Assembly: GCF_019468465.1 (NCBI RefSeq)
Contig: NZ_CP080519.1
Location: 3,673,001 to 3,737,000, forward strand
Reading direction: 5' to 3'
Length of the DNA stretch: 64,000 nucleotides
Origin: Amycolatopsis sp. DSM 110486
Lineage (GTDB): Bacteria > Actinomycetota > Actinomycetes > Mycobacteriales > Pseudonocardiaceae
Position 1 is the first letter of the stretch. Every line of letters starts with the position of its first letter. Below the pieces are notes generated by a model, which worked only from the letters and a program-made list of their open reading frames with translations, ran no database searches and had not been told where the DNA came from. The position numbers and the translations under genes were made by a program. Positions 8,563-49,815 of the stretch are shown here, one piece after another.

Positions 8563-9861
8563 GTGACGATCAGCGCGACAACGGAGCGGATCGGGCCGAG
8601 GCTCCTGGTCCGTGATCGCGAGTTCCGCAGGCTGCTCTACACCCGGTTCGCCGCGCAGTGGGGCGACGGCGTGTACCGGGCGGGCCTCGCGGGTGCCGTG
8701 CTGTTCAACCCCGAGCGCGCCGCCGACCCGCTGGCCATCGCCGAGGGCTTCGCGGTGCTGCTGCTGCCGTACTCCGTGGTGGGACCGTTCGCGGGCGCGC
8801 TGCTCGACCGGTGGGACCGCCGGCGCGTGCTCGTGTTCGCGAACCTGCTGCGGGCAGTCGCCATCCTCGCGTCGGCCGCCGCGGTGGGCACGGGTCTCGG
8901 CGGGCCGGGGCTGTTCTCCCTCGCGCTGCTGGCCGAGGGCTTGTCGCGCTTCATCGGCTCGGGTCTTTCGGCTTCCCTGCCGCACGTGGTCCCGGCGCCG
9001 AGCGTCGTGTCCGCAAACGCTTTCGCGACCACGCTCGGGTCGGTGCTGGCCGTGGTCGGCGGTGGGTGCGCCATCCTGCTGCGCGTGGTCTTCGGCGCGG
9101 GCAACCTCGGCTCGGCCGAGACGACGGCGTGCGCCGCGCTGGGCGCGCTCGTCTCGGCGCTGATCGCCCGGCGGTTCACGCGCGGGGTGCTCGGGCCGAC
9201 GGTCGTCGACGAGCCACCGAACCCGTTCCTCGCCGTCGCCCGCGGTCTCGCGGACGGCGCCCGCCACGCCTGGCGCGCGCCGAGCGTGACGGCCGGGTTC
9301 ATCGCGCTGTTCGCCCACCGCGCGGCCTACGGCATCTCGCTGCTGGTCACCGTGCTGCTGATGCGCAACTACTTCACCGACAACGGAGTCTTCCGCGCCG
9401 GCCTGCCCGGGCTCGGGCAGATGGCCGCGCTCGCCGGCGCGGGCATCCTCGTGGCCGGGCTGCTCACGGCGCGGCTGATCCGCGGCTTCGGCCGGCTGCG
9501 CGCGATCCTCGGCGCGCTGCTGGTGGCCGCCGTCGCCCAGTCGGCGCTCGGGCTGCCGATGGTGCTGCCGCTGGCGTTGCTGGCGTCGTTCCTCATCACC
9601 GGCGCGGGTCAGGTGCTCAAGCTGTGCGTCGATTCGTCGATCCAGCTCGACGTCGCCGACGAGGCCCGCGGCCGCGTGTTCGCCCTGTACGACACGCTGT
9701 TCAACATCACCCAGGTGGCCGCCGTGGCCATCGGCGCGGTCTTCATCGCGGACAACGGGTACTCGCCGGGACTGATGATCGCGGCCACGATCTGCTACTT
9801 CCTCGGCGGCGCCGGTTACCTCGTGGCGCGCCGCCGCGCGGTGCCGGACCGGCCGAACTGA
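8563..9861 (+). CDS. Major facilitator superfamily transporter
   Basis: The protein has 432 residues from GTG at 8563, with about 11-12 transmembrane segments. The MFS signature between helices 2 and 3 appears as GALLDRWDRRRVLV. The frame is open upstream for over 300 bp, but that part is basic and overlaps the divergent methyltransferase, so it is not taken. TACGCT lies 7 bp before the GTG, consistent with a leaderless transcript. It resembles the efflux-type MFS next to yqgE in mycobacteria (Rv0037c). Substrate is not predictable. Confidence 0.85.
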   Translation: MTISATTERIGPRLLVRDREFRRLLYTRFAAQWGDGVYRAGLAGAVLFNPERAADPLAIAEGFAVLLLPYSVVGPFAGALLDRWDRRRVLVFANLLRAVAILASAAAVGTGLGGPGLFSLALLAEGLSRFIGSGLSASLPHVVPAPSVVSANAFATTLGSVLAVVGGGCAILLRVVFGAGNLGSAETTACAALGALVSALIARRFTRGVLGPTVVDEPPNPFLAVARGLADGARHAWRAPSVTAGFIALFAHRAAYGISLLVTVLLMRNYFTDNGVFRAGLPGLGQMAALAGAGILVAGLLTARLIRGFGRLRAILGALLVAAVAQSALGLPMVLPLALLASFLITGAGQVLKLCVDSSIQLDVADEARGRVFALYDTLFNITQVAAVAIGAVFIADNGYSPGLMIAATICYFLGGAGYLVARRRAVPDRPN

Positions 9862-9915: not shown

Positions 9916-9921
9916 TAGAGT
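9916..9921 (+). promoter_or_regulatory. Putative -10 of the TNT/ARH cluster
   Basis: TAGAGT, 5 bp before the GTG at 9927 that opens the accessory cluster. There is no Shine-Dalgarno sequence, so a leaderless start for the first gene is likely. The following genes are close enough together to share this promoter. Confidence 0.4.
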
Positions 9922-9926
9922 GACGC

Positions 9927-10349
9927 GTGACCCAGCCGGGTGAACCCCGGCGAGTGCAACCGACACGGGGGGCCACCGTGAGTACCGCAGGGGACGACCG
10001 CGCCCTGGAAGCCGCTCCTGCAGTGCTGACGTCTCCGGACGGGCTGGTCCGGGCCACCGTCGGCAGCGGCGGCACGCTGGGCCGGCTGGAGTTCGCTCCG
10101 GACACTTTCCAGCGCACCACTCCCGCCCAGCTCGCGTTCACCGTCCAGGCCCTGGTGCAGCAGCTCGCCGAGGCCCCGTTCACCGACGCCACGCCACAGC
10201 AGATGCCGTCCCCCCGTCCGACGCCGCGGCGCGTGCGCCCGCGTACGGCGCCTGCTCCGCAGAGCCCCGCCACGCAGGGCGCTGTGAAGCCGCAAGGACC
10301 GCTGCCTCCGCGAAGCGCCGTGCCGCAGCACCGGCGCCGCGGCTACTAA
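9927..10349 (+). CDS. YbaB/EbfC-like small protein
   Basis: The 140-residue product has a central segment of about 50 residues (VLTSPDGLVRATVGSGG, then LGRLEFAPDTF and PAQLAFTVQALVQQLA) that follows the beta-beta-helix pattern of YbaB/EbfC nucleoid-associated proteins. In actinobacteria this fold is common in genes beside type VII-secretion and polymorphic-toxin loci. The C-terminal 55 residues are proline/arginine-rich and disordered. It opens a five-gene run with tight spacing (15 bp to the next gene). A role as DNA-binding protein or as chaperone for the cluster is inference. Confidence 0.55.
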   Translation: MTQPGEPRRVQPTRGATVSTAGDDRALEAAPAVLTSPDGLVRATVGSGGTLGRLEFAPDTFQRTTPAQLAFTVQALVQQLAEAPFTDATPQQMPSPRPTPRRVRPRTAPAPQSPATQGAVKPQGPLPPRSAVPQHRRRGY

Positions 10350-10364
10350 CGCCGCGCACCGGAT

Positions 10365-11759
10365 GTGCTGAGACCTGTGGAACCACCAATTTCCGAGTCC
10401 GACCAACACGGCCGGCTGGTCGAGATCGGGCGGCTGATCCGCGCCCACCAGCCCGACGAGGGCGCCCCCGCCGGCATCGGCTTCGCGCAGGTCGGCGACC
10501 ACACCGAGGTCCAGCCGCGCAACACCGAGGCCGGCCCCGAGCTGGTCGGGATGTTCCACGCGCTGCGCGCCGGCATGTACCGCCAGGGCCGCGGCACGTG
10601 GCTGCAGGCGCGGTTCGTGCTCGCGTCCGACGGCACCTTCGACTTCGACTTCTTCGTCGACGGCGAACCCCAGTGGACGACCCCGCCCGACCCCGGTGCC
10701 TACCGCGACGAGCTCGAGACGTTCCCCCGCGAGGACGAAAACATCCCCGACTGGTGGCGGCTGCGCACCGGGCTGCCGCTCGGCGTCGAGTTCCGCCACG
10801 CCCGCCCCGCCGAGGTGGGGGAGGAGCGCGAGCCGCTGGCTGACGAGGAGCTGCCGCTCGTGCTGCAGTACCTCGAACGCGAGGCGCTGGTCGGCGACGC
10901 GCACCGCACCGACGGCACCTGGCTGTGGCCTGAGACCGTGTCCCACCAGCTGCGCCGCCACGGCATCGCGCCGGAGCCGGAGCTCGTCGCGCACATCCGT
11001 GAGCTGGGGTTCCAGCCGCCGTACGTCGAGCACCTGGTGCGCCGCACGGCGGAGGCCGACTTGCTGGGCCGTCCGCGTCCGCGACCCTCCGCCGAGGACG
11101 GGCAGCGCACCGCTGGCGACGTCGCCGCCGAGCTGGAGACCAGCCCCGACCCGGACCTGGCCGACGAGCAGCTGCTGGTGGTCCTCGTGCAGCGGCTCGG
11201 CTCGTTCGGCGTGTGGCCGCAAGCCTACCGGATCGGCGCCGTCGAAGCCGGCAAGTGGTGCCTGACCAGGGGCGACGACGGCTGGACCGTCACCTCGGCA
11301 GCCGGCAACGGCCAGACCTTCGAGCACCTCGCCGACGCGGCCCAGCAGCTGCTCGGCGCGCTCCTGCTGCACCCGGCCCGGCGGACAGGCGGGCGCGAGA
11401 CCCCGCTCGAGACGGCGAAGGAAGTGGACGACTGGCCCATCCAGCCGGCCGCGGGTGACCCGCCCCTCACCCTGCTGCGCAACAAGAGACTCACCCGACT
11501 GTCCGAAGGTACGGTCGTCCTGCGCTTCGGGGAGGAACCGGGCAACCTGGTCCACCACGGCGAGGTACGGTTCGCCACGACGTCACTGCCACTCGAACGG
11601 GAACGAATGGCGCACACTTACCGCCTAAGAAGGTCACTCTACGTGGTCACCGGAGTGACGGTGCCCTGGGCGAACCTGCCGGGCGGAGCAGTGGCATACG
11701 TGTTGCCCAAGCCGATCGCGGAGCACGAGTCCGACGGAAGCCTGGAGAGGATCGAGTAG
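10365..11759 (+). CDS. Multidomain protein with C-terminal TNT-like domain (copy 1)
   Basis: 464 residues. Residues about 15-130 resemble the YezG/DUF600 fold (FDFDFFVDGEPQW, then ELETFPREDENIPDWW). A middle module, DGTWLWPETVSHQLRRHG to ELVAHIRELGF, is shared with the larger paralogue at 15150. The last 95 residues match TNT, the NAD+ glycohydrolase domain of the tuberculosis necrotizing toxin: SEGTVVLRFG, then AHTYRLRR and GVTVPWANLPGGAVAYVLP. The arginine of RFG (about residue 387) and a histidine (about 417) are kept. The residue expected to be Gln in the GG-x-Q-Y segment is Ala (about 444), so activity is uncertain. No signal peptide. Its stop directly abuts the next gene's GTG. Confidence 0.65.
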   Translation: MLRPVEPPISESDQHGRLVEIGRLIRAHQPDEGAPAGIGFAQVGDHTEVQPRNTEAGPELVGMFHALRAGMYRQGRGTWLQARFVLASDGTFDFDFFVDGEPQWTTPPDPGAYRDELETFPREDENIPDWWRLRTGLPLGVEFRHARPAEVGEEREPLADEELPLVLQYLEREALVGDAHRTDGTWLWPETVSHQLRRHGIAPEPELVAHIRELGFQPPYVEHLVRRTAEADLLGRPRPRPSAEDGQRTAGDVAAELETSPDPDLADEQLLVVLVQRLGSFGVWPQAYRIGAVEAGKWCLTRGDDGWTVTSAAGNGQTFEHLADAAQQLLGALLLHPARRTGGRETPLETAKEVDDWPIQPAAGDPPLTLLRNKRLTRLSEGTVVLRFGEEPGNLVHHGEVRFATTSLPLERERMAHTYRLRRSLYVVTGVTVPWANLPGGAVAYVLPKPIAEHESDGSLERIE

Positions 11760-14006
11760 GTGGAAGCGGCGGAAGCGATGGAGAAGGTCGTGAACTGGCT
11801 ACGCGCTGTGCACGGCCCCCAGATCGCCGGTCCTGGTGGGCTGCGGGTCGACCACGACCGCGTGCTGCGCATCCCCGAAGGCTGGTCGATCCCGTACAAC
11901 ACCACCGCGTACCTCGACGACGGCCGGCCGGACAAGGAGCTCTTCCCGCCGCCGTCGGTCGTCGTGCGTGAGCCGGACGGCGAGCTGCGCCAGGCACCTC
12001 CGAACCCAGGAGGGCTGAGCATCCCCGTGGCCTTCCCCGGCCAGGAGAGCTGGCGCGAAGTCGTGGACCCCGAGTACGTCAAGGCCGGGTTCGGCGAGCT
12101 CGGCGTGCCGCTTCAAGCCGTGGCCGGCTGGGTCAAGGTCGACAACGAGGGCCGCCAGACCGGCGACGAGCGCGAGAACCCCGAGTACAAGGCCGGTCCG
12201 ATCCGCCGCGGCTACCCGAAGCCGGAGAACACGCTGGAGACGCTGCTCGCGTTCGCCAGCGTCGGCTGGCTCACGCGTGAGCAGCTGCTGATCGGCCTGC
12301 TGCGCTGCGATGTCTTCGTGCCGCTCGACCCCGAGACCGGCGCCACGGATCGCTTCTACTTCTCCGAAGAGCGCAACGAGCTGCGCGTCTTCAGCGCGAC
12401 GCGCCACTTCCCGCCGCGCGAGCACTCCTGGTGGCGCGTGGACCTCGCCACGCTGGCCGAGTTCGAGCACCCGCCGAACCTCGTGATCAACGGCGGCCCG
12501 GCGACGTTCGAGGACGTCTCGGGCGACGATCTCTCCACCATCGCCAAGCGCTTCCCGCGCCACGAGCCGCGCATCGATCGGCACGGACGCGGCCCCGAGG
12601 CCGAGGAAGACCTCGAGCGCCTCACCAGCGACACCGCCACGCGCATGGGCCTGTCCGAGCCGGTGGCCGTGCCGCTGGTAGCGGCCGAAAACGCGCGTCG
12701 CCACGGCTTCGAGCTCACCGCCGAGGAGTGCCAGCGCACGGTGCTGGGCCAGTCGTGGCTCAACCGCCTCGCGATGGCGGAGCCGCCGCGCAGCAAGCCG
12801 AACGACTGGCGCGCCAACGGTCTCGTGCCGGGCTGGGACAACCTCGGCCGCGTGATCCCGCGCCTGGACACATTCGGCAAGTACCCCGACCGCGACCTCG
12901 AGAACTTCCGCTACGGCTGGCAGCGCGTCGCGGGCGCGTACGTGGGCTTCGCGCTCGGCGAGGCGCTCGGCATGGCCGTCGACCGGATGCGGCTCGACGA
13001 GATCGTCACGCAGTTCGGGGCCGAGGGCGTGGCCGACCTGCCCGTCGCGTTCGACCAGGCGGGCCGCATCGGCTCGCTGACGCAGCGGCTGCTGTTCTAC
13101 ACCGAGGCTGTGATCCGCAGCCCGCACCGCGAGCAGCCGGAGTCGCGCGACGTCGAGCAGCAGTTCCCGTCCGTGGTGCGCGGCGCGTTGATGCGCTGGC
13201 TGCACACGCAGGGCGCGCCGTACGACGACGCCGACGGCTGGCTCGTGAAGGTGCCCGACCTCCACGTCCGCCGCACCGCCGACGACGCCGAGCTCAACGC
13301 CTACCACGCGGCGGTCACCGGATCTCCGCAGGCAGTGCCGCTGACAGGCCCGACGTCGTTGATCGCCGCGCTGCCCGCCACGCTCATCGCCGCCGGCCCC
13401 GGCACGGGCTTCAGCGGCGGCGTGCGCCAGGCCGTGCGCGACCTCGTCGGCGTGACGCACCCGCACGAGGACGACCTGGCGGTGGCGACGTACCTGGCCT
13501 GGCTCTTCGAGCCGGTGCTCACGAAGGACGCGTTCAGCTATCCCGTGTGGAACCTCTCGCGCGAGATCCTGACCGAGCACAACACCACGTTCGTCAGCGG
13601 TCCCGAGTGGGCGCCGGTGAAGGCGATGGTCGCCGAGTCGGTGCCGTTCTTCGGCGAACACGGGCTGCCGGATCTGCGGATGCCCGAGCTGATCGGCGAC
13701 GGCCAAGGCACGCTTTCGGTGCTCGGGCGCGCGTTCGCCGCGTTATCCGGGTTCGAGAACTACCCCGAGCAGGCCCTGCTGCGCGCGGTGAACCATTCCG
13801 GGCGCAGCGCGCTGACCGGGGCGATCACCGGCGCGTTGCTCGGCGCCCGCGTCGGCGTGCCCGGGCTGCCGCAGAAGTGGATCGAGCAGCTCGAGCTGCG
13901 GCACCTCATCGAACAGGTCGTCACGGACGCGTTGTGGCACTTCGATCGCCGCTCCGCGATGAGTTTCCTGGGCGAAGAGTGGGTGCAGCGCTACCCGCGG
14001 CACTGA
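11760..14006 (+). CDS. YrhB/SseB-like domains fused to a degenerate ADP-ribosylglycohydrolase
   Basis: 748 residues. The N-terminus (about 5-85) resembles the YrhB/Imm35 immunity-type domain (GLRVDHDRVLRIPEGW, then YNTTAYLDD). Residues about 155-275 look like an SseB N-terminal-type domain (LLRCDVFVPLDPETG, ELRVFSATRHFPP, LVINGG). From about 382 the protein is an ADP-ribosylglycohydrolase fold (GAYVGFALGEALGMAVD) closely related to the next gene. Both metal-binding motifs are lost: the TDDTQM position reads GSLTQR (about 437) and the NHSGDSDST position reads NHSGRSALT (about 678). It is therefore probably a pseudoenzyme that may bind but not cleave ADP-ribose. GTG at 11760 abuts the previous stop; ATG at 11778 is an alternative. 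Confidence 0.65.
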   Translation: MEAAEAMEKVVNWLRAVHGPQIAGPGGLRVDHDRVLRIPEGWSIPYNTTAYLDDGRPDKELFPPPSVVVREPDGELRQAPPNPGGLSIPVAFPGQESWREVVDPEYVKAGFGELGVPLQAVAGWVKVDNEGRQTGDERENPEYKAGPIRRGYPKPENTLETLLAFASVGWLTREQLLIGLLRCDVFVPLDPETGATDRFYFSEERNELRVFSATRHFPPREHSWWRVDLATLAEFEHPPNLVINGGPATFEDVSGDDLSTIAKRFPRHEPRIDRHGRGPEAEEDLERLTSDTATRMGLSEPVAVPLVAAENARRHGFELTAEECQRTVLGQSWLNRLAMAEPPRSKPNDWRANGLVPGWDNLGRVIPRLDTFGKYPDRDLENFRYGWQRVAGAYVGFALGEALGMAVDRMRLDEIVTQFGAEGVADLPVAFDQAGRIGSLTQRLLFYTEAVIRSPHREQPESRDVEQQFPSVVRGALMRWLHTQGAPYDDADGWLVKVPDLHVRRTADDAELNAYHAAVTGSPQAVPLTGPTSLIAALPATLIAAGPGTGFSGGVRQAVRDLVGVTHPHEDDLAVATYLAWLFEPVLTKDAFSYPVWNLSREILTEHNTTFVSGPEWAPVKAMVAESVPFFGEHGLPDLRMPELIGDGQGTLSVLGRAFAALSGFENYPEQALLRAVNHSGRSALTGAITGALLGARVGVPGLPQKWIEQLELRHLIEQVVTDALWHFDRRSAMSFLGEEWVQRYPRH

Positions 14007-14034
14007 CGCCGCGAGGCTTCGAAAAGATGGGGTC

Positions 14035-15108
14035 ATGGAGGCACAGCGGCTGAGGGGCTGCCTGCTCGCGGGCGCCATCGGCGACGCGCTCGGCGCGAAG
14101 ACGGAGTTCGATTCGATCGAGCGGATCCGCGAGCTCACCGGGCCCGCCGGCATCACGGACTTCATCCCCGCGTACGGCGGCGAAGGGCGCTTCACCGACG
14201 ACACGCAGATGACGCTCTTCACCCTCGAAGCGCTCATCCGCGCCCACGCGCAGCAGCGGCGGACCGGCAGCGCCGACGTCGTGCAGTCCGTGCAGCTGGC
14301 CTACCAGCGCTGGCTGCACACGCAAGGCGTGCCGTGGGAGCGGGCGCGCGGCCCGCACTCCGCGCTCGCGGCGCCTGACGGTGAGCTCGTGACGCACGCC
14401 GCGCTGTTCAGCCGCCGCGCACCGGGGCTCACGTGCTTCGGCGAGCTGGAGGCCTACGGGCGATCGGGCGTGCGCGGCAGCGTCTCGCGGCCGGTGAACA
14501 ACTCGAAGGGCTGCGGCGGTGTGATGCGGGTGGCGCCCGTCGCGCTGTGGTCCGCCGACCCGGCCGAGGTGTTCCGGCTCGCCGCCGAGTTCGCGGCTCT
14601 GACCCACGGTCACCCGAGCGGGTATTTGTCGGCCGGCGCCTTCGCCGTGATCGTGCAGCAGTTGCTGGCCGGTTCGCCGCTGCTCGACGCCGTCGCTGTG
14701 TCCAGAGCCGAGCTGGTCCGCCACCCCGGTCACGAGGAGCAGGAAGCCGCGCTGGCGCAGGCCCTCGCGATGTCCGGCCCGCCGACGCCGGAGCGGCTGG
14801 CCGAGCTGGGTGAGGGCAACGTCGGCGAGACGGCGCTGTCGATGTCCGTGTACGTCGCGCTGACCACCGAAGATCCGGATTCCGCGCTGCTCGCGGCCGT
14901 GAACCACAGCGGCGACAGCGATTCCACGGGTTCGGTCTGCGGCAACCTCGTCGGCGCGATGTACGGCGAAGCGGCGCTGCGCGTCAGCTGGCTGGAGCGG
15001 CTCGAACTGCGGGACGTGATCGCGCGGCTGGCGGACGACGCGCTCGCCGAGTTCGGCCCCGACTCACCGAGTGACGAGGGTTGGTTCACGCGTTACCCGG
15101 TCGACTAA
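14035..15108 (+). CDS. ADP-ribosylglycohydrolase family protein
   Basis: A 357-residue single-domain ARH enzyme that removes ADP-ribose from protein or small-molecule acceptors using a two-metal centre. The first motif, GRFTDDTQMTLFTLEALI (Thr-Asp-Asp at about 53-55), and the second, VNHSGDSDSTGSVCGNLVGA (about 286-305), carry the metal-ligand aspartates, so activity is expected. GAIGDALGAKTEFD gives the family N-terminus. It follows the degenerate homologue by 28 bp, which suggests tandem duplication and divergence. Neighbouring TNT-like domains act on NAD+ chemistry, so the cluster as a whole probably concerns NAD+/ADP-ribose; the actual substrate is unknown. Confidence 0.88.
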   Translation: MEAQRLRGCLLAGAIGDALGAKTEFDSIERIRELTGPAGITDFIPAYGGEGRFTDDTQMTLFTLEALIRAHAQQRRTGSADVVQSVQLAYQRWLHTQGVPWERARGPHSALAAPDGELVTHAALFSRRAPGLTCFGELEAYGRSGVRGSVSRPVNNSKGCGGVMRVAPVALWSADPAEVFRLAAEFAALTHGHPSGYLSAGAFAVIVQQLLAGSPLLDAVAVSRAELVRHPGHEEQEAALAQALAMSGPPTPERLAELGEGNVGETALSMSVYVALTTEDPDSALLAAVNHSGDSDSTGSVCGNLVGAMYGEAALRVSWLERLELRDVIARLADDALAEFGPDSPSDEGWFTRYPVD

Positions 15109-15149
15109 GTTCTTTCCCGGTCACCGGGGGAATTGGGGAGGAACCTGAC

Positions 15150-17042
15150 GTGCGCTACCGGGTAGAGGCGGGAGACCGCCCGGACGGTTTGTACGCGACG
15201 CTGGACGACCGCACGTTCGCGGCCGAGCGCTCGACCACCGACGGCACGCTGCTGCTGTCCGTACCGCCGGACGAAGAGGCGCCCGCCGGGTTCGACCGCG
15301 AGCACGAGGGTCGCCCGGCGCGCGTGGTGCTGGCCACCGAGGTGCCGGCGACGTTCACGCTGCGCACGTACTGCGAGTACGACGACGAGCTGTTCGAGGT
15401 CGCGCCCGGAGACGGCAAGGAGCTGACGCTGCGCTGGACGCAGCACGACCCGGCGCGCGCCGCGCAGCTCGGCCTCACCGACTTCTCGACGACGGCCGAG
15501 GCCAAGCGCGTCACGGGCCTGTGGCAGCTGCGCCGCGACCAGGGCGAGCCGCGCCCGGAGCTCGACGCCGACCACGGCGCCCTGCTGCGCGCGATCGGCC
15601 GCACGCTGCGCGCCGTGCCCGGCGGCTGGACGCGCGTCGCCGCGCAGTTCCGGCAGGTCGGGGACTACGCGGAGCTGGAGGTCCGCGCGGTCGGCGACGA
15701 AAACGGGCCGGTGTCCGTGTCGCTGCCCGCGCCGCCGAAGCTGAGCGCGTTGTTCGCACGACTGCGCGCGGCGATGTACTCGCCCGACACCGGCACGTGG
15801 TTCCAGGGCACCTTCACGCTCGACACCGAGGCGCAGTTCGACTTCGACTTCGACTCCGAGCACGAGCCCACCTGGCGCGTCCCGCCGAACGACGGCGGCC
15901 GGCCCGCGCCCGAGTCGTACGCCGTGGAGCTCGCGCAGTACCCGCGCCCGCCCAAGGAGCTGCCCGACTGGCTGGCCGCGAAAGCCCACCAGCCCCTCGA
16001 CGTCGCCTTCCGCCACGCCCGCGTGGTCGACGCGCACAACGAGAACGAGCGCCCGGTCGTCAACCGGCCGCCGGTGCCACCCGACCAGCTGCGCGGCGTG
16101 CTCGACTACCTGTTCCGCGCGCCCCTCGTCCTGCATCGCCCGCAGCCGCAGCACGACATCTTCGCCCCGGGCGCGCCGCCCGACGTGCCGCACGCCTTCC
16201 ACACCGACGGCACCTGGGTGTGGCCCGCGGCCGTGCCGCACTACCTGCGCAAGTACGGCGTGCCGCCCGAGCCCGAGCTGGTGGACCACATTCGTGGTGC
16301 CGGCTTCCGTCCGCCGCTGGTGCGCGAGCTCGTCCGCGCGACGGCCGAAGCCGAGATCCTCGGCACCCCCCGCCCGACGCGCTCGGAAACCGAACTCCCC
16401 GACGACGGCCGCCTCGCCCGCGCCCTCCGCGGCGACGACCTGGGCCTCGACCTGCACGCCGCCGAGACGCTGACCTTGCTGCACCAGCGCCTGGTCGAAC
16501 ACGGCGTGCCTGCCGGCGCGTACCGGATCGGCGCCACCGAGGTGCCGCTCGCCGACGTCTGGACCCTGCGCCGCGCCGAGAACGGCTGGGAGGTCTCCCG
16601 CCCGCCGGCCGTCGCGCCCGTGGCCTTCGGCAGCCTGGCCGACGCCGCCCGCTTCCTCCTCGGCACGCTGCTCATGCTGCCCCCGCGCGCCGCCGACGAG
16701 TCCGACCAGCCCGCCGACTGGCCGATCCTGCCGCTACGCGGCGAGCCGCCCCTGAGCTTCTTCCGCGGCAAACGCGTCGTCGTCCTCCCCGCCGGCACCA
16801 CGGTCCTGCGCTTCGGCAACGACGCCGGCAACCTCGTCCACACCTCCGGCACGCGCTTCGCCTCGACGTCGCTGTCCCCGGAACGCGAACGCGAGCGGCA
16901 CGAGTACCGGGTGCAGCGCACGCTGCGGGTGCTCACCGGCATCACGGCCCCGTGGGGCCCTCAACCGGGCGGGGCGACGGCTTACTTGCTGCCGCGGCCG
17001 ATCGCGCAGCACGTGGAGGCGGGGGCGCTATCCCGCGTGTGA
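15150..17042 (+). CDS. Multidomain protein with C-terminal TNT-like domain (copy 2)
   Basis: 630 residues from GTG at 15150, which has GGGGAGGA 6 bp upstream; the open frame extends 23 codons upstream into the ARH gene but lacks a ribosome site. A beta-rich N-terminal region (about 1-140) is absent from copy 1. It is followed by the same YezG-like segment (FDFDFDSEHEPTW), the shared DGTWVWPAAVPHYLRKYG module and a C-terminal TNT-like domain. The latter has LPAGTTVLRFGND, the histidine in RERHEYRVQR, and GITAPWGPQPGGATAYLLP. As in copy 1 the Gln of the GG-x-Q-Y segment is Ala. It overlaps the convergent methyltransferase by 15 bp. Function is unknown; an effector-like or NAD-binding role is inference. 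Confidence 0.65.
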   Translation: MRYRVEAGDRPDGLYATLDDRTFAAERSTTDGTLLLSVPPDEEAPAGFDREHEGRPARVVLATEVPATFTLRTYCEYDDELFEVAPGDGKELTLRWTQHDPARAAQLGLTDFSTTAEAKRVTGLWQLRRDQGEPRPELDADHGALLRAIGRTLRAVPGGWTRVAAQFRQVGDYAELEVRAVGDENGPVSVSLPAPPKLSALFARLRAAMYSPDTGTWFQGTFTLDTEAQFDFDFDSEHEPTWRVPPNDGGRPAPESYAVELAQYPRPPKELPDWLAAKAHQPLDVAFRHARVVDAHNENERPVVNRPPVPPDQLRGVLDYLFRAPLVLHRPQPQHDIFAPGAPPDVPHAFHTDGTWVWPAAVPHYLRKYGVPPEPELVDHIRGAGFRPPLVRELVRATAEAEILGTPRPTRSETELPDDGRLARALRGDDLGLDLHAAETLTLLHQRLVEHGVPAGAYRIGATEVPLADVWTLRRAENGWEVSRPPAVAPVAFGSLADAARFLLGTLLMLPPRAADESDQPADWPILPLRGEPPLSFFRGKRVVVLPAGTTVLRFGNDAGNLVHTSGTRFASTSLSPERERERHEYRVQRTLRVLTGITAPWGPQPGGATAYLLPRPIAQHVEAGALSRV

Positions 17043-17867
17043 CCCACGCGCGGTGATCAGCACGGCGGGGGACCACCAGTAGTCGGCGAGCGGCTCCACC
17101 ACAACGTCGGTGAAGCCCGCGATTTCAAGCTGAGCCACCCACGCCAACGCAGGCTGCTCCCAGTTCGTCCGCTCCGCACCCGCGGCGACGCCGAGCAGCA
17201 CGGGCATCAGAAATCCTTGCGCGACAAGAGAAGCCCGGGCACCGTACTCGGCGACGCCGCGCTCGTATCGCGACACCAGCGACTCCAGAAAGTCCGGCGA
17301 CCCCTCGTCCAGCACGGGGATGTCGAACTCCGCCAACACCAGCGTTTCCGTGCGCGGCCGCAGTTCTCGCAGCACCGCGGCCCGCACCGGGGGCCTCATG
17401 GACTGCATGGCGAACGTCGACTGTGCGAGGTTCCACGTGGAACCGTTCGCCCCGAGGAAGCTCTGCGCCGTCGCCTCGAAGCGGTTCGCGCCGGGCACGT
17501 CGACGGCCGCGAGTAGCGCCGCCGACGGCTCCACCAGGTCGATCCGCCCCGGCCGGAACGACGACTGCGCCAGCGCGGGCTCCACGGCCAGGCCGTCGCC
17601 GCAACCCAAGTCCAGCAACGATTCCGGGCGCAGCGCCGCATATCGAGCAGCCAGCGCAGCGCTCAGCCGCGAGTACAACCCCACGTTCCCGCCACCACGG
17701 ATGAACGCCGTGAACGCCGCCGGCTGGTCGTACACCGGCCCGGACCCGTCCGTCGCGAGGTACGCGGAAAGCTCCGCCCCCAATGGCGAATCAGCCCGCG
17801 AGGCAAGCTCGATCGCCTGAGAAACATCCCCGGCCCGGTAAGCGGCAAGCGCGTCGACAAGGATCAC
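17028..17867 (-). CDS. Class I SAM-dependent methyltransferase
   Basis: The 279-residue protein has motif I LLDLGCGDGLAVEP, the acidic ribose-binding position in IDLVEPSAALL, and a late aromatic patch (DYWWSPAVLITARG). Residues 1-80 form a helical extension before the Rossmann core. Acceptor substrate is not predictable. A perfect 14-bp palindrome of parS type lies inside the frame near 17430, encoding part of TWNLAQ. The 3' end overlaps the TNT-like gene by 15 bp in convergent orientation. It lies just downstream of the histidine kinase on the same strand (22 bp between kinase stop and this start). Confidence 0.7.
   Translation of the reverse strand: MILVDALAAYRAGDVSQAIELASRADSPLGAELSAYLATDGSGPVYDQPAAFTAFIRGGGNVGLYSRLSAALAARYAALRPESLLDLGCGDGLAVEPALAQSSFRPGRIDLVEPSAALLAAVDVPGANRFEATAQSFLGANGSTWNLAQSTFAMQSMRPPVRAAVLRELRPRTETLVLAEFDIPVLDEGSPDFLESLVSRYERGVAEYGARASLVAQGFLMPVLLGVAAGAERTNWEQPALAWVAQLEIAGFTDVVVEPLADYWWSPAVLITARGSHAG
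17430..17443. promoter_or_regulatory. parS-like ParB site within a coding sequence
   Basis: GTTCCACGTGGAAC is a perfect 14-bp palindrome. It differs from the bacterial parS core GTTTCACGTGAAAC by one symmetric change at the position that varies among natural parS sites. It lies about 21 kb left of parB, inside the methyltransferase gene. The other matches in this window cluster at 40.4-41.4 kb. Confidence 0.5.
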
Positions 17868-17889: not shown

Positions 17890-19230
17890 TCAGAACGGCA
17901 CCCACAACGTCACCCGCGTGCCGCTGCCGGGCGTCGACTCCACCAGGGCCGTGCCGCCGACCTCGCCGAGGCGCGCGTTGATCGACTGGCTGATGCCGAA
18001 CCCCGCGGGCCGCGCATCAGGACTGAAGCCCTGCCCGTGGTCGCGCGTGATCACCGCGATTCCGCCGTCGCGTTCCTCCACGCGCACCACGACCTTGTCC
18101 GTGCCGGAGTGCTTCATCGTGTTGCGCAGCGACTCGCGCACGGCGTCGCGCAGCGCGATCTGGCGCACTTCCGACAGCGTGTCCTCGTCGAGCTCCGCGA
18201 TCACCAGCTGCGCGCGCAGGCCGTCGCGCGCCATTTCCGCTGCCAGCGCCGCGAGCTTCTCGCCCAGGGGCCGCGACGCTTCTTCCTCGCGCTGCGCCGC
18301 CGCCGTCTCGATCGTCTGCCGCAGCTCCATCGCCTGGGCGCGGGCGAGCCGCTGCACCTCCACGAGCCGGTCGGCCGACTCGCCGGTGCCGCCGAGTGAG
18401 ATGGCCTCCAGCGTCTGCAGCACGGTGTCGTGGAGCATCCGGTGCTGCTGCGCGCGTTCGGCGAGCCGTCCGTTTCGGATGCCGTAGGCCAGCGCGAGCC
18501 GCGTGCCGAGGCCGAGCAGGATCAGCGCGCCGATGCCGGTGAACAGCACTCCGAACATCGTCGGGTACAGCGACCAGGCCTGCGCGAAGTTCGCCGAGCC
18601 GCTGTTGAGGAAATCGGACAGCAGCCGCACGGGCAGGCTCAGCGCCGCCAGCGCCAGCCCCGACGGGATGCCGATCGCCAGCGTCAGCAAAGCGATGTCA
18701 CCCAGCAGGTGTTTGTCCGCGACCCCGAGCGCGTCGTGGAACACCGACGTGGGCTCGGTCAGGCCGATGACCAGCTGAAACGCCACCGTGATGATCAGGT
18801 CCGCCACCAGCAGCCGCGCCGCGAGGTCGGAGCGGAAGGGCGACGAGCGCAGCATCCAGTAGATCCCGAACGCGCTCATCGCCATCGAGCACAACGCCAC
18901 CAGCGCCACGGGCACCACGCCGGTCGAACCGTGCGCCGACACGAACGCGCCGAACGCGCCCGGCACCGCGACGATCCGGTAGGCCAGCGGCACCAGCACC
19001 ACGTACCGCGCCGCGCGCAGCAGCAGCCCGTCGTTGTACCTGGCGTCCACCGCGCCCGCCATGCGCGAGATCCGCTTGAACGCCCGCAGCGGCGTCGGGT
19101 CGGCGATCTCGTCGGTGAGCCCGGTCGTCGCCGTCGCGAGCGCGGGCGTGCCGCGTTTCAACAGGGTGACGAGGAAGCTCGACGTGCGGGGCGGCCGGCC
19201 GTCCTGGTCCTCAGTTGCCTGCGCCGTCAT
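17890..19230 (-). CDS. Orphan membrane sensor histidine kinase
   Basis: The 446-residue protein starts at ATG 19230 behind GGGGAGATCG. The N-terminal half has about six membrane helices between residues 65 and 265. The kinase part starts with the phosphoacceptor segment HRMLHDTVLQTLEAI (HDxxxQ, typical of HisKA_3/NarL-partner kinases). A GHKL ATPase domain follows, with N-box ESLRNTMKHSG, G1 DHGQGFSP and G2 GFGISQSI. Such kinases normally phosphorylate a LuxR-type response regulator, but none is adjacent. It could pair with a distant regulator. The signal sensed through the membrane domain is unknown. Confidence 0.8.
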   Translation of the reverse strand: MTAQATEDQDGRPPRTSSFLVTLLKRGTPALATATTGLTDEIADPTPLRAFKRISRMAGAVDARYNDGLLLRAARYVVLVPLAYRIVAVPGAFGAFVSAHGSTGVVPVALVALCSMAMSAFGIYWMLRSSPFRSDLAARLLVADLIITVAFQLVIGLTEPTSVFHDALGVADKHLLGDIALLTLAIGIPSGLALAALSLPVRLLSDFLNSGSANFAQAWSLYPTMFGVLFTGIGALILLGLGTRLALAYGIRNGRLAERAQQHRMLHDTVLQTLEAISLGGTGESADRLVEVQRLARAQAMELRQTIETAAAQREEEASRPLGEKLAALAAEMARDGLRAQLVIAELDEDTLSEVRQIALRDAVRESLRNTMKHSGTDKVVVRVEERDGGIAVITRDHGQGFSPDARPAGFGISQSINARLGEVGGTALVESTPGSGTRVTLWVPF

Positions 19231-19416
19231 CGATCTCCCCGGTACGGGGCGCGCCCCCTCCGGCAGCGCCCGGGGCAGCGAGTATTCCCGCTCGCCGGGC
19301 CGCGTTCCAGAGGCCAAAGGGGGATCTTGGCGGATTCGCGATCACGAATTCGACTCGTGTTCGTTCGAAGACCCCACGACGACCCCAGGGTGACCACCCG
19401 TGCCCGCAGCGCGAGA

Positions 19417-20862
19417 TCACTCCGTGGGTGCGATGCCCTCCGACTCGGCCCACTTCTTGAGCTCGGCCACGGCCTCGTCGTGGTCCAGCGGACCGCGGTC
19501 CAGCCGCAGCTCCTTGAGGAACTTCCACGCCTTGCCGACCTGCGGACCGGGCTTGAGGCCGAGCAGCCGCATGATCTCGTTGCCGTCGAGGTCGGGGCGG
19601 ACCCGGTTGAGGTCCTCCTGCTCCTTCAACGTCGCGATGCGCTGCTCGAGGTCGTCGTACGTCGCCTGCAGCGCGGCCGCCTTCTTGCGGTTGCGCGTGG
19701 TCGAGTCGGCGCGCACGAGCTTGTGCAGCCGCGTCAGCAGGTCACCGGCGTCGGTGACGTAGCGGCGCACGGCCGAATCCGTCCACTCGCCGTTGGCGTA
19801 GCCGTGGAAGCGCAGGTGGAGGAACACGAGCTGCGAGACCTGCTCCACGATCTCCTTGGAGAACTTGAGCGCCCGCAAACGCTTGCGCGCCATCCGCGCG
19901 CCCACGACCTCGTGGTGGTGGAAGCTCACGCCGCCGCCGGGCAGCAACTCGCGCGTCTCCGGCTTGCCGACGTCGTGCAGCAGCGCGGCAAGCCGCAGCA
20001 CCAGGTCGGGCTCCGATGCCGGCTCGTGCGTGGTCTCCAGCTCGATCGCCTGCGCCAGCACGGTCAGCGAGTGCTGGTAGACGTCCTTGTGCTGGTGGTG
20101 CTCGTCGATCGCCAGGCGCATGCCGGGCAGCTCGGGCAGCACGTGATCCGCGAGGCCCGTGTCCACGAGCAGCTCCAGGCCCGGCCGCGGGTCGGGGGCG
20201 AGCATGAGCTTCGACAGCTCCGCCTGCACGCGCTCGGCCGTGATCCGCTCGATCTCGCTCGCCATCGACGTCATCGCCTCGACCACGCGCGGCGCGGCGG
20301 TGAAGCCGAGCTGCGAGGAGAAGCGCGCGGCGCGCAGCATGCGCAGCGGGTCGTCGGCGAACGACTCCTGCGGCGTCGCCGGGGTGTCGAGCACCTTCAG
20401 CCGCAGCGCGTCCATGCCGTCGTGGGGGTCGATGAACGTCTTCGTGACCAGGTCGATCGCCATCGCGTTGACCGTGAAATCGCGGCGCAGCAGGTCGCCC
20501 TCGATGGTGTCGCCGAAGGTGACCTCGGGGTTGCGCCCGACACGGTCGTAGCTGTCGGCGCGGAACGTGGTGATCTCGAGCGTGGTGCCCTTCTTGGTGA
20601 CCCCGACCGTGCCGAACGCGATGCCGACGTCCCACACGGCGTCGCCCCAGTCGCTCACGATCTGCAGCACACGGTCCGGCCTCGCATCGGTGGTGAAGTC
20701 GAGGTCGTTCGAGAGCCGGCCGAGCAGCGCGTCGCGCACGCTGCCACCGACCAGGTAGAGACTGTGGCCGGCTCGCGCGAACCGCTCGGCCAACTCGTCG
20801 GCCAGGGGGGACACTCGCATCAGTTCCGTCACCGCGTTCTGCTGGGCGACCAGGTTGTTCAC
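19417..20862 (-). CDS. cca: CCA tRNA nucleotidyltransferase
   Basis: Adds or repairs the 3'-CCA of tRNAs in the cytoplasm. The 481-residue protein has the nucleotidyltransferase signature LYLVGGSVRDALLGR (GG at 39-40) and catalytic NDLDFTT (Asp53/Asp55). The RRDFTVNAMAID block and the nucleotide-recognition region DDPLRMLRAARF follow, then a C-terminal HD domain with LHDVGKPETR near residue 293. This is the bacterial CCA/poly(A) polymerase family. It is needed here because tRNA-Ile in this window lacks an encoded CCA. The location beside a Nudix gene and murJ matches M. tuberculosis pcnA (Rv3907c). It is divergent from the Nudix gene. Confidence 0.95.
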   Translation of the reverse strand: MNNLVAQQNAVTELMRVSPLADELAERFARAGHSLYLVGGSVRDALLGRLSNDLDFTTDARPDRVLQIVSDWGDAVWDVGIAFGTVGVTKKGTTLEITTFRADSYDRVGRNPEVTFGDTIEGDLLRRDFTVNAMAIDLVTKTFIDPHDGMDALRLKVLDTPATPQESFADDPLRMLRAARFSSQLGFTAAPRVVEAMTSMASEIERITAERVQAELSKLMLAPDPRPGLELLVDTGLADHVLPELPGMRLAIDEHHQHKDVYQHSLTVLAQAIELETTHEPASEPDLVLRLAALLHDVGKPETRELLPGGGVSFHHHEVVGARMARKRLRALKFSKEIVEQVSQLVFLHLRFHGYANGEWTDSAVRRYVTDAGDLLTRLHKLVRADSTTRNRKKAAALQATYDDLEQRIATLKEQEDLNRVRPDLDGNEIMRLLGLKPGPQVGKAWKFLKELRLDRGPLDHDEAVAELKKWAESEGIAPTE

Positions 20863-46900: not shown

Positions 46901-47332
46901 TTACACCGCTGATCCGTGGTCGGGGGCCGCGTCCTGCTGACGCGGTTGCCGGGGAGCATCTTCCCCGGCGGCGCGGCGGGACGAGGTGAGTCCGAGCCGG
47001 CGCAACGCCGCGTCGAGATCGGCGCCGAGCTCCGCGCTCGAAGCGGACGCCGCCGGAGGTAATGCCCGTACGACCAACGAGCTGCCCGGGGGCAGTGTTC
47101 CGAGTCGGGCCGAAACGAGATGACGCAGTTGCCGGGTCACTCGATGGCGGACCACCGAGTTCCCGACGGCCTTGCTCACCACAAAACCCGCCCTGGCCGC
47201 ATCGGGTGCGGCCGCGGACGGGTCCGTGGTCAACGCGTGGACGACGAGGCGACGCCTGCCTGCCCTGGAGCCCCGGCGGAGAACGACCCGGAAGTCTTCA
47301 CTCCGCCGTAGACGTGCGGCTGCGGGCAGCAC
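46901..47332 (-). CDS. rnpA: Ribonuclease P protein component
   Basis: A 143-residue protein that binds the RNase P RNA and assists 5' processing of tRNA precursors. [43 protein letters not shown] (the RNR-like motif appears as [13 protein letters not shown]) and [12 protein letters not shown] are the family landmarks. Compared with short RnpA proteins it carries a C-terminal tail of about 30 polar residues. GTG at 47332 lies 21 bp after the rpmH stop, the near-universal arrangement. Confidence 0.94.
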
Positions 47333-47353
47333 GGCGCGCCTCGACGAGCCGGA

Positions 47354-47497
47354 TCAGGCGGACAGCGCGCCGCGGCCCTTGCGACGACGAGCCCCCAAGA
47401 TGGCCCGGCCGGCACGGGTCCGCATGCGGAGGCGGAAACCGTGGGTCCGCGCGCGTCGGCGGTTGTTCGGCTGGAAGGTGCGCTTACCCTTGCTCAC
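47354..47497 (-). CDS. rpmH: 50S ribosomal protein L34
   Basis: A 47-residue, very basic protein: [20 protein letters not shown], then [27 protein letters not shown]. This is a full-length L34. The start is GTG at 47497, with an AGGAG 8-12 bp upstream. It is first in the leftward rpmH-rnpA-yidD-yidC-jag operon and divergent from dnaA, as in most bacteria. Confidence 0.97.
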
Positions 47498-47949
47498 TGC
47501 TACTCCTGTGTCTCGGCCGTCGGGCGACGGATTTTCGGCCGTCTACCGGCATGTCGTGCGGGCGCACGGCAGTCTCTGGTGTCTCCTACCAACGTGTGGC
47601 CTCGTCACGACGAGCGACGACATACGTGGGCACGCGAAACGCACCCGTCGCTTACGGGAGACCTTACGAGGGTACGCACCCCGGTCGGGAGCCGTGTAGG
47701 CACCCCCTCCGCCACGCTCGGCGACCGGGCCGTGACCTCGCCTTCGCCCACGCCGGGACACCGAATGGCAACACGCCGTACACCGTGAAATGCTTGCGCA
47801 CAATGGTGCCTTGTGGCAGCGGGCGAGGCTTGTTAGCGTGCCTCTTCCGGGTCGCCCGGTCTCGAGGCGCGCGGCGGTATCGCCACCGGGGTGTGGAGGC
47901 GCCCACGGCGAACGCCGAGCCCGCAGGTGGCGTGGCTGCGGGCAGCCGT
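47498..47949. other. rpmH-dnaA intergenic region, rpmH-proximal part
   Basis: About 450 bp between the divergent rpmH and dnaA genes. It must hold the rpmH operon promoter and at least one dnaA promoter. On the minus strand TACCCT near 47673 is a possible -10; none of the boxes is clear enough to assign. No coding sequence is supported. Confidence 0.4.
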
Positions 47950-47988
47950 ACATTAGTGCACAGCTGTGGACAACTATGTGGATATTCG
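47950..47988. promoter_or_regulatory. DnaA boxes in the dnaA upstream region
   Basis: TTAGTGCACAG (47953), CTGTGGACAA (reverse of TTGTCCACAG, 47964) and TATGTGGATA (47976) follow one another within 35 bp. They lie about 110 bp before the dnaA start. This is the expected arrangement for DnaA autoregulation. Confidence 0.7.
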
Positions 47989-48096
47989 CTGTGCCCGCGC
48001 GCAGGTCGGTCCAAGATGACGTCCAGGGGAGTGTTTTGCGGGCGTGGTTGGGGTGATTCCGCCGTTCACGCCGACGAGGGGAGGGGAGCCAGACAG

Positions 48097-49815
48097 GTGT
48101 CCGAGCACCAGCACAATCTGGGCGTTATCTGGGAGCAGGTGGTACGGGAGCTGTCCGACGGCACCCTCTCGCCGCAGCAACGAGCCTGGATGCGGGTGAC
48201 GAGGCCCATCGGCCTGCTCGACGGCACCGCCCTGCTGGCTGCCCCCAGTGACTTCGCGAAGGAAGCGATCGAACGCGCGCTGCGAGGTGCGATCACCGAC
48301 GCCCTCTCCCGCCGGCTCGGCCGCGCCGTGTCGCTCGCCGTGAAGGTCGACAGCGCCGAGGCCATCGCGCCAGCGCCGCGCTACGTGCCCGCACCCCCTC
48401 AGGTGGAAAACGGGCACCCCGACAACGGGCGCATCGACAACGGGCGCCTGGAACCCGGTCACCTCGACCCCACGCACGTGGAGAACGGACGGCCCGACAA
48501 CCGCCGTCTCGAGAACGGCCGCCTCGACAACGGTTCCGTCACGCAGCAGCGTCCGCCGATCGACGGCGCCTCCATGGCCGCCGCGCGCGCCGCCCGGCCC
48601 GAGCCGCCGCGCCAGCGCCCGGTGCCGCAGCCGGCCCCGCTCGAGGAGTCCGACGACCCGAACGAAGAAGTGGACGAGGAAGGCGAAGCGCTCGCCGCCG
48701 TCCACGAGATCTGGCCGACGTTCTCCGGCCAGCCGATCGCCGGGCAGCCCTACACCGCGCCCGCGCAGCCGCAGACGTCGAAGACGAAGCTCAACGAGAA
48801 GTACACCTTCGACACGTTCGTGATCGGCGCGTCCAACCGGTTCGCCCACGCGGCCGCGGTGGCCGTGGCCGAGGCGCCGGCCCGCGCGTACAACCCACTG
48901 TTCATCTGGGGTGAGTCCGGGCTCGGCAAGACGCACCTGCTGCACGCCGTGGGCCACTACGCGCAACGGCTGTTCCCCGGCATGCGCGTGCGCTACGTCT
49001 CGACCGAAGAGTTCACCAACGACTTCATCAACTCGCTGCGAGACGACCGCAAGGTCGCCTTCCAGCGGCGCTACCGCGACATCGACATCCTGCTCGTCGA
49101 CGACATCCAGTTCCTGGAAGGCAAAGAAGGTACGCAGGAAGAGTTCTTCCACACCTTCAACACCCTCCACAACGCGAACAAGCAGATCGTCGTCAGCTCC
49201 GACCGCCCGCCCAAGCGCCTCGAGACGCTGGAGGACCGGCTGCGGACGCGGTTCGAGTGGGGCCTGATCACCGACATCCAGCCGCCCGAGCTCGAAACCC
49301 GCATCGCCATCCTGCGCAAGAAGGCCGCGCAGGACCGGCTGGCGGTCCCGGGCGAAGTACTGGAGTTCATCGCGTCGCGCGTGGAGGCGAACATCCGCGA
49401 ACTCGAGGGCGCGCTGATCCGCGTGACCGCGTTCGCGTCGCTCAACCAGCAGGCCGTGGACACCTCGCTCGCCGAGATCGTGCTGCGCGACCTGATCCCC
49501 GACTCCCATGCACCGGAGATCACGGCGCCGACCATCATGGGCGTCACGGCGGAGTTCTTCGACGTGACGCTCGACGAACTGTGCGGGCCCGGCAAGACGA
49601 AGGCGCTCGCCACCGCGCGCCAGATCGCGATGTACCTGTGCCGCGAGCTCACGGACATGTCGCTGCCGAAGATCGGGCAGACGTTCGGCGGCCGCGACCA
49701 CACGACCGTGATGCACGCGGACAAGAAGATCCGCAAGGAGATGGCCGAGCGCCGGCGCATCTACGACCAGGTGCAGGAGCTCACGTCGCGGATCAAGCAG
49801 CGGGCTCGGCAGTAG
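48097..49815 (+). CDS. dnaA: Chromosomal replication initiator protein DnaA
   Basis: 572 residues from GTG 48097 ([15 protein letters not shown]), with GGGGAG upstream. Domain I spans about 1-90. Domain II, about 95-220, is long, and at residues 103-147 it contains a run of degenerate repeats around D/E-N-G-R/H. Domain III has Walker [14 protein letters not shown] near 272 and Walker [13 protein letters not shown]. The DNA-binding domain IV has [14 protein letters not shown]. The protein opens oriC and binds DnaA boxes including those upstream of its own gene. A strong terminator follows. In-frame codons reaching back to 47062 cross rpmH and rnpA and are not part of the gene. Confidence 0.98.

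Follow-up and report, generated by a model that had tools for sequence, protein, structure and literature searches.

The locus described here lies in Amycolatopsis sp. DSM 110486, in a window of 64,000 nucleotides (the whole stretch of DNA that was analysed: contig NZ_CP080519.1, positions 3,673,001 to 3,737,000), and the protein matches of the window genes place the genome in Amycolatopsis. It consists of five genes on the + strand, called g1 to g5, at positions 9927-17042 (Table 1). An earlier note, made by reading this DNA, had described a five-gene cluster of TNT and ADP-ribosylglycohydrolase (ARH) proteins opened by a YbaB-like gene. The five genes are indeed present, and the list of domains holds in profile searches, which matched TNT, ARH, Imm35 and, below threshold, YbaB. 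The position given in that note, close to the origin and between conserved genes, is likewise borne out: dnaA is found at 47062-49815, about 30 kb away, and the same flanks, an MFS transporter on the left and a methyltransferase-like gene, a histidine-kinase-type gene (HK) and a gene for a CCA-adding-type enzyme (CCA) on the right, occur in other species.

Domain by domain, the five proteins are a mixture of folds. The Pfam YbaB match of g1 (13.8 bits, E 0.07) is below the cut-off of 25.5, and comparison of the translations by eye with a full-length YbaB relative from A. coloradensis (L007:29-640; 48.8 bits, E 8.3e-13) shows that the N-terminal helix and the C-terminal part are missing. The Pfam TNT family (PF14021, cut-off 27) is matched by g2 with 68.7 bits and by g5 with 84.8 bits. 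The TNT fold of g2 also survives the check by structure prediction that the earlier note had proposed, its AlphaFold2 (AF2) model (pLDDT 88.9) being matched to that fold by Foldseek and VIA-align. In the same model, the N-terminal domain was matched to the EsaG/YezG (DUF600, Imm36) fold; the middle segment, which gave weak matches only in the fold comparison, is common to other proteins, one of them named SseB-like. In g3, the Imm35 match reaches 78.3 bits, above the Pfam cut-off of 27.5, while the domain associated with type VII secretion systems (T7SS) is an NCBIfam match below cut-off. Both the ARH and the EsaG/YezG folds were matched to immunity folds. None of the five proteins matched PADLOC at E <= 1.

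Table 1. Genes of the locus and its flanks (positions in the window; ORF, open reading frame).
Feature	Position	Strand	Description
g1, shortened YbaB/EbfC-like	9978..10349	+	ORF open from 9927; sub-threshold Pfam YbaB match
g2	10365..11759	+	EsaG/YezG-like domain (residues 9-105), middle segment, C-terminal pseudo-TNT (366-464)
g3	11760..14006	+	Imm35 (4-100), T7SS-associated domain (96-258), ARH (392-705) without metal-binding residues
g4, ADP-ribosylglycohydrolase (ARH)	14035..15108	+	Pfam E 1.9e-69; checked motif positions intact
g5, longer g2 paralogue	15150..17042	+	C-terminal TNT domain without Asp/Arg pair, Gln kept
MFS transporter, conserved left flank, outside the system	8602..9861	+	
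Methyltransferase-like protein, conserved right flank	17028..17867	-	
Histidine-kinase-type protein (HK), right flank	17890-19317		
CCA-adding-type enzyme (CCA), right flank	19417-20862		

What stands at this site in other species? The sample comprised 80 genomes of the genus, with locus stretches from 79 (about 20 kb, shorter at contig ends) plus the window, and was searched with the window proteins and with operon parts from A. coloradensis. A toxin domain was found at the locus in 56 of the 80, as part of a type VII (WXG100) polymorphic-toxin operon, which bears out the earlier note's link to T7-like secretion and immunity modules. The intact order is MFS flank, YbaB, WXG100, toxin, p155, g2, g3, g3b, g4, g5, and then the methyltransferase-like, HK and CCA genes. 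The A. coloradensis toxin, 2351 aa long with a WXG100_2 head, carries two ADP-ribosyltransferase (ART) domains, two papain-fold domains and one RelA/SpoT-type (alarmone synthetase) domain; the synthetase domain is present in 52 of the 56 toxin-positive genomes. (WXG100 itself was seen at 42 of these 56 loci, a number of no use for counting, since some stretches end before it.) The toxin-positive genomes carry g2, g3 and g3b without exception (56/56 each) and g4 in 55/56, whereas in the 24 toxin-negative genomes g2 is found in 19, g3 in 17, g3b in none and g4 in 6; presence of g4 here means more than 50% identity, a looser ARH column also counting the ARH part of g3. On the other hand, g5 was matched in all 80, with one in-frame TGA within the match in G006 and G019, and has relatives in Saccharomonospora, Prauserella and Qaidamihabitans. 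The exact g1-g5 set without a toxin occurs in 5 of the 80. The idea of the five genes as a fixed unit must therefore be given up, the commonest unit having WXG100, toxin, p155 and g3b in addition. Outside the genus, two loci (L023 and L024, inferred to be from Actinokineospora and Saccharothrix) have toxin, p155, g3 and g4, and no g2, g5 or oriC flanks within the 20 kb seen.

The operon also varies in form. One genome (G059, locus L022) was scored as toxin-positive although its toxin looks fragmentary: a 933-aa ORF there matches ART and papain domains in part but nothing in Pfam, and the toxin may be on its way to being lost here too. In four genomes of another genus of the family (L025-L028), p155 falls, by its coordinates, inside the toxin ORF at its C-terminal end and adjoins a synthetase domain with a weak match, a possible fusion of toxin and immunity protein; in L025, the only one in which the frame was checked, toxin, p155 and g2 lie in one ORF of 2687 aa. 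In L105 (G072), six p155-like copies stand in a row behind the toxin.

Of the 24 toxin-less genomes, 17 form the window's clade and five have g5 alone; of the remaining two, one carries g2 and g4 beside g5 and the other g2 beside g5. Throughout the clade, g2, g3 and g5 were detected (17/17), and the locus, in the window as in the rest of the 17, showed neither a WXG100 partner nor a WXG100_2-headed toxin. In a tree built by a quick method from g5 alone (80 rows), the 17 are grouped together with full SH-aLRT support, nested among toxin-bearing groups, which points to one loss for the whole clade. The toxin label changes five times on this tree against a shuffled mean of about 21, the genome counts themselves not being independent. 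Presumably, a single event in the ancestor of the clade removed WXG100, toxin, p155 and g3b, and YbaB was trimmed. With domain queries (rather than the whole toxin), neither ART nor synthetase was matched in the window's genome at E <= 0.001; elsewhere this genome has one papain-fold toxin match, ten WXG100_2 matches and three T7SS EccC matches that exceed the cut-off of the family. The genome thus appears to retain genes of immunity families while the ART and synthetase domains of their cognate toxin go unmatched, which is the state expected of orphan immunity.

The TNT domains of g2 and g5 look disarmed. Residues scored were the Asp-Arg pair of the DRxG/QRxL motifs and the catalytic Gln, for which roles in activity or stability are reported in the available parts of PMC6398120 and PMC7955114. 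Across the genus, 154 g2/g5 TNT domains were scored (155 rows minus that of G066, locus L071, in which g2 is truncated before the TNT domain). The equivalents of Asp128 and Arg148 are kept in none of them and that of Gln194 is gone in 138; the 16 that keep it include the window's g5, and most Gln-keeping g5 copies belong to its own clade. All 154 retain the Arg of the RFG motif. In the other TNT domains of the genus, by comparison, Asp, Arg and Gln are each kept in 32 of 32 checked. To judge from these residues, the g2 and g5 TNT families are unlikely to cleave NAD+, although activity is less surely excluded for g5 than for g2 because the window's g5 keeps its Gln. (The position of AfNADase Phe137 was considered as evidence of inactivity and dropped, as other TNT domains of the genus differ there too, 29 of 32 having Leu.) A TNT match at E below 1e-30 exists in each of the 80 genomes. 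The window's genome also encodes a protein of about 1,130 aa (G000 C1:4637518-4637775; L116:9488-12871, - strand) that resembles g5 in its N-terminal part and has the active-site residues of its TNT domain still in place.

The two ARH proteins differ in the same respect. The ARH domain of g3 lacks the TDDT and GDxDxT motifs, as tested, and has lost the metal-binding residues, whereas in g4 both motif positions are kept in 61 of 61 genus copies. (For g3b, the motif count covers the 42 copies that passed a start-position filter, against 56 loci with g3b, and the motif is partly poorly aligned.) The g4 protein appears to be an intact ARH, of a family that can undo ADP-ribosylation, and it is because of this membership and the intact motifs that it is taken as the probable remover of ADP-ribose. 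As for Imm35, the single other match in the window's genome lies about 250 bases from the sole papain-fold toxin match. This adjacency agrees with Zhang et al. 2012 (PMC3482391), where, in the part available, Imm35 is said to go specifically with Tox-PL1 and to be fused to ARH in some cases. That papain-fold match and a nearby WXG100_2 match share an open-frame length of 650 aa, and the region (G000 C1:1063934-1065865) is noted here as a second WXG100_2-headed papain-fold toxin beside an Imm35 gene. Large ARH proteins of about 1,750 aa were seen at L034:8999-14272 and L036:5918-11155; in the former, three ARH domains accompany a T7SS-associated domain (140 bits), and the latter is an ARH-matching ORF of similar length.

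Which warhead might each protein counter? Pairing was counted in 90 loci, the 80 of the genus and ten others, 66 of them toxin-bearing. The p155 gene and the synthetase domain occur together in 58 and are jointly missing from the other 32, and from this co-occurrence p155 is the likely partner of the synthetase warhead. The number of papain-fold domains equals that of g3-like N-termini in 62 of the 66 toxin-bearing loci (two in 56, one in 6); of the four mismatches, L020 is cut short by the range fetched, L061 runs into a contig end, L022 is fragmentary and L092 has an extra g3-like hit. A link between the numbers of g3 and of ART domains was dropped in favour of the papain link (56 versus 62 of 66). 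The motif pattern applied to ART, with 104 of 105 matching, is a lax one.

The set seems to be mostly kept by purifying selection, whatever function drives it. In eight hand-picked toxin-less pairs, the ratio of nonsynonymous to synonymous substitution (dN/dS) was 0.09-0.35 for g1, 0.11-0.34 for g2, 0.04-0.18 for g3 and 0.11-0.24 for g5, and in four such pairs 0.09-0.21 for g4. The flanks gave 0.09-0.13 (MFS, seven pairs) and 0.12-0.36 (methyltransferase-like gene), and eight toxin-bearing pairs gave values similar to those of the toxin-less ones.

Why would immunity be kept without the weapon? It is likely that g1 to g5 are an orphan immunity locus, left over from a type VII polymorphic-toxin operon that has a fixed oriC-proximal site, and the protection would presumably be against the toxins of those relatives in which the operon is still present. 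In such a locus, Imm35 would allow g3 to bind the papain-fold warhead, the ARH fold of g3 might do the same for ART, g4 would take off the ADP-ribose that the ART warhead attaches, and g2 and g5, with their EsaG/YezG-like domain (modelled in g2) and disarmed-looking TNT domain, would serve as binding or adaptor proteins. A more doubtful proposal, advanced tentatively, is that a TNT toxin fold was disarmed and joined to an EsaG-like domain, and that the resulting immunity or adaptor proteins g2 and g5 became part of the core genome of the genus and outlived the toxin. Several observations weigh against the orphan-immunity reading. The cover would be partial, as p155 and g3b went with the toxin and g4 is present in only 5 of the 17 clade genomes and absent in 12; in one clade member (G021, locus L049), g2 looks degraded. 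No warhead was matched to g2 or g5 in the pairing counts, the agreement of g3 with ART is weaker than that with the papain fold, and tree-based tests of the pairs (toxin with g4, synthetase with p155) were not significant. The genomes behind the pairings are related and the independent events few, and the dN/dS pairs were chosen by hand. Moreover, a value down to 0.04 in g3 is strong constraint for an immunity protein, g5 occurs without g2, g3, g4 or toxin in 5 of the 80 genomes, where another role is possible, and its Gln is kept in 14 of the 17 clade genomes versus 1 of 63 elsewhere, which fits retained use of the site.

The last of these points, the strong constraint on g5 as well as g3, the presence of g5 throughout the genus and its relatives beyond, and the position near dnaA would all suit a housekeeping role that has nothing to do with the toxin, in NAD or ADP-ribose signalling, with the toxin operon having grown around g5. 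Such a role is nevertheless unlikely: g2, g3 and g4 are far more constant with the toxin than without it, Imm35, EsaG and ARH folds are immunity folds, and the two loci from outside the genus have p155, g3 and g4 behind the toxin, with neither g2 nor g5 in the stretch of 20 kb covered. The earlier note had favoured an active system, in which TNT NADases regulated by ARH act on NAD+ and ADP-ribose for defence or as T7 effectors. The TNT profile and fold matches, the intact motif positions of g4, the invariant RFG Arg and the Gln of the window's g5 speak for it; with Asp128 and Arg148 lost in 154/154 and Gln194 in 138/154 while other TNT domains keep all three, no WXG100 or toxin head at the locus and no PADLOC match, it is very improbable. 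That interpretation is therefore supported in part: its domains, T7 and immunity link, neighbours and g2 TNT fold stand, whereas action on NAD+ through TNT and the fixed unit do not, and what was supposed to be an effector set looks instead like the part of a toxin operon that confers immunity. Least credible of all is a decaying remnant without function, which the shortened g1, the missing toxin, the patchy g4 and the degraded g2 of G021 might suggest; the five frames of the window are open, dN/dS is 0.04-0.35, and g2, g3 and g5 persist in every clade member.

Orphan T7SS immunity genes are already known from Staphylococcus aureus (PMC9484751, in the part available), where the EsaD-EsaG system shares the T7SS immunity fold and immunity genes are kept in toxin-less strains. 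Orphan esaG genes are tandem copies of one gene, however, whereas different multi-domain proteins are retained here, two of them with a TNT domain lacking Asp and Arg. The account of Imm35 and Tox-PL1 (PMC3482391) is alike in the specificity of Imm35 for the papain fold and in the fusion to ARH; a toxin-less state and a fixed genus-wide site were not found in the available portion of it. Tre1-Tri1 and the Listeria ART-ARH pair (PDB 6dre, 8za7) differ in that here Imm35 is joined, in g3, to an ARH that has lost its metal ligands, the ARH that looks intact has a gene of its own, g4, and the toxin is absent. From the TNT of CpnT with IFT and the fungal TNT NADases, g2 and g5 differ by missing residues reported as needed in the available text of PMC6398120 and PMC7955114. 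AaEAS of Amycolatopsis azurea is a T7SS-linked toxin of the same genus; its C-terminal alarmone-synthetase part produces (p)ppGpp and is inhibitory to Escherichia coli, and behind the toxin gene comes a small ORF presumed to confer immunity, as p155 does here (PMC12691689, as excerpted). This activity supports the view of the lost toxin as a weapon. AaEAS is set beside the locus by its description, may be the same locus or a paralogue, and concerns the toxin, not the toxin-less set. Among the matches listed, the locus was not found described in the literature, nor were a genus-wide series at one site, the mix of disarmed-looking enzymes, or proteins with a TNT and an EsaG-like domain.

The genus thus offers a natural series at one site, with toxin and immunity together, immunity alone, and g5 alone. 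With one inferred loss of the toxin followed by retention across 17 genomes, the reason for keeping immunity without the weapon becomes directly testable, and two candidate pairs are at hand, the papain fold with Imm35 proteins and the alarmone synthetase with p155. Some caution is also due in annotation, since "TNT domain-containing" in Amycolatopsis covers two families that are unlikely to cleave NAD+.

Among the neighbours, the protein at 17028..17867, which we take from its sequence to be methyltransferase-like, had no match in the Pfam search. Counted from the first ATG, the dnaA ORF is 917 aa long and its ATPase domain does not begin until residue 577; the true start may be further in.

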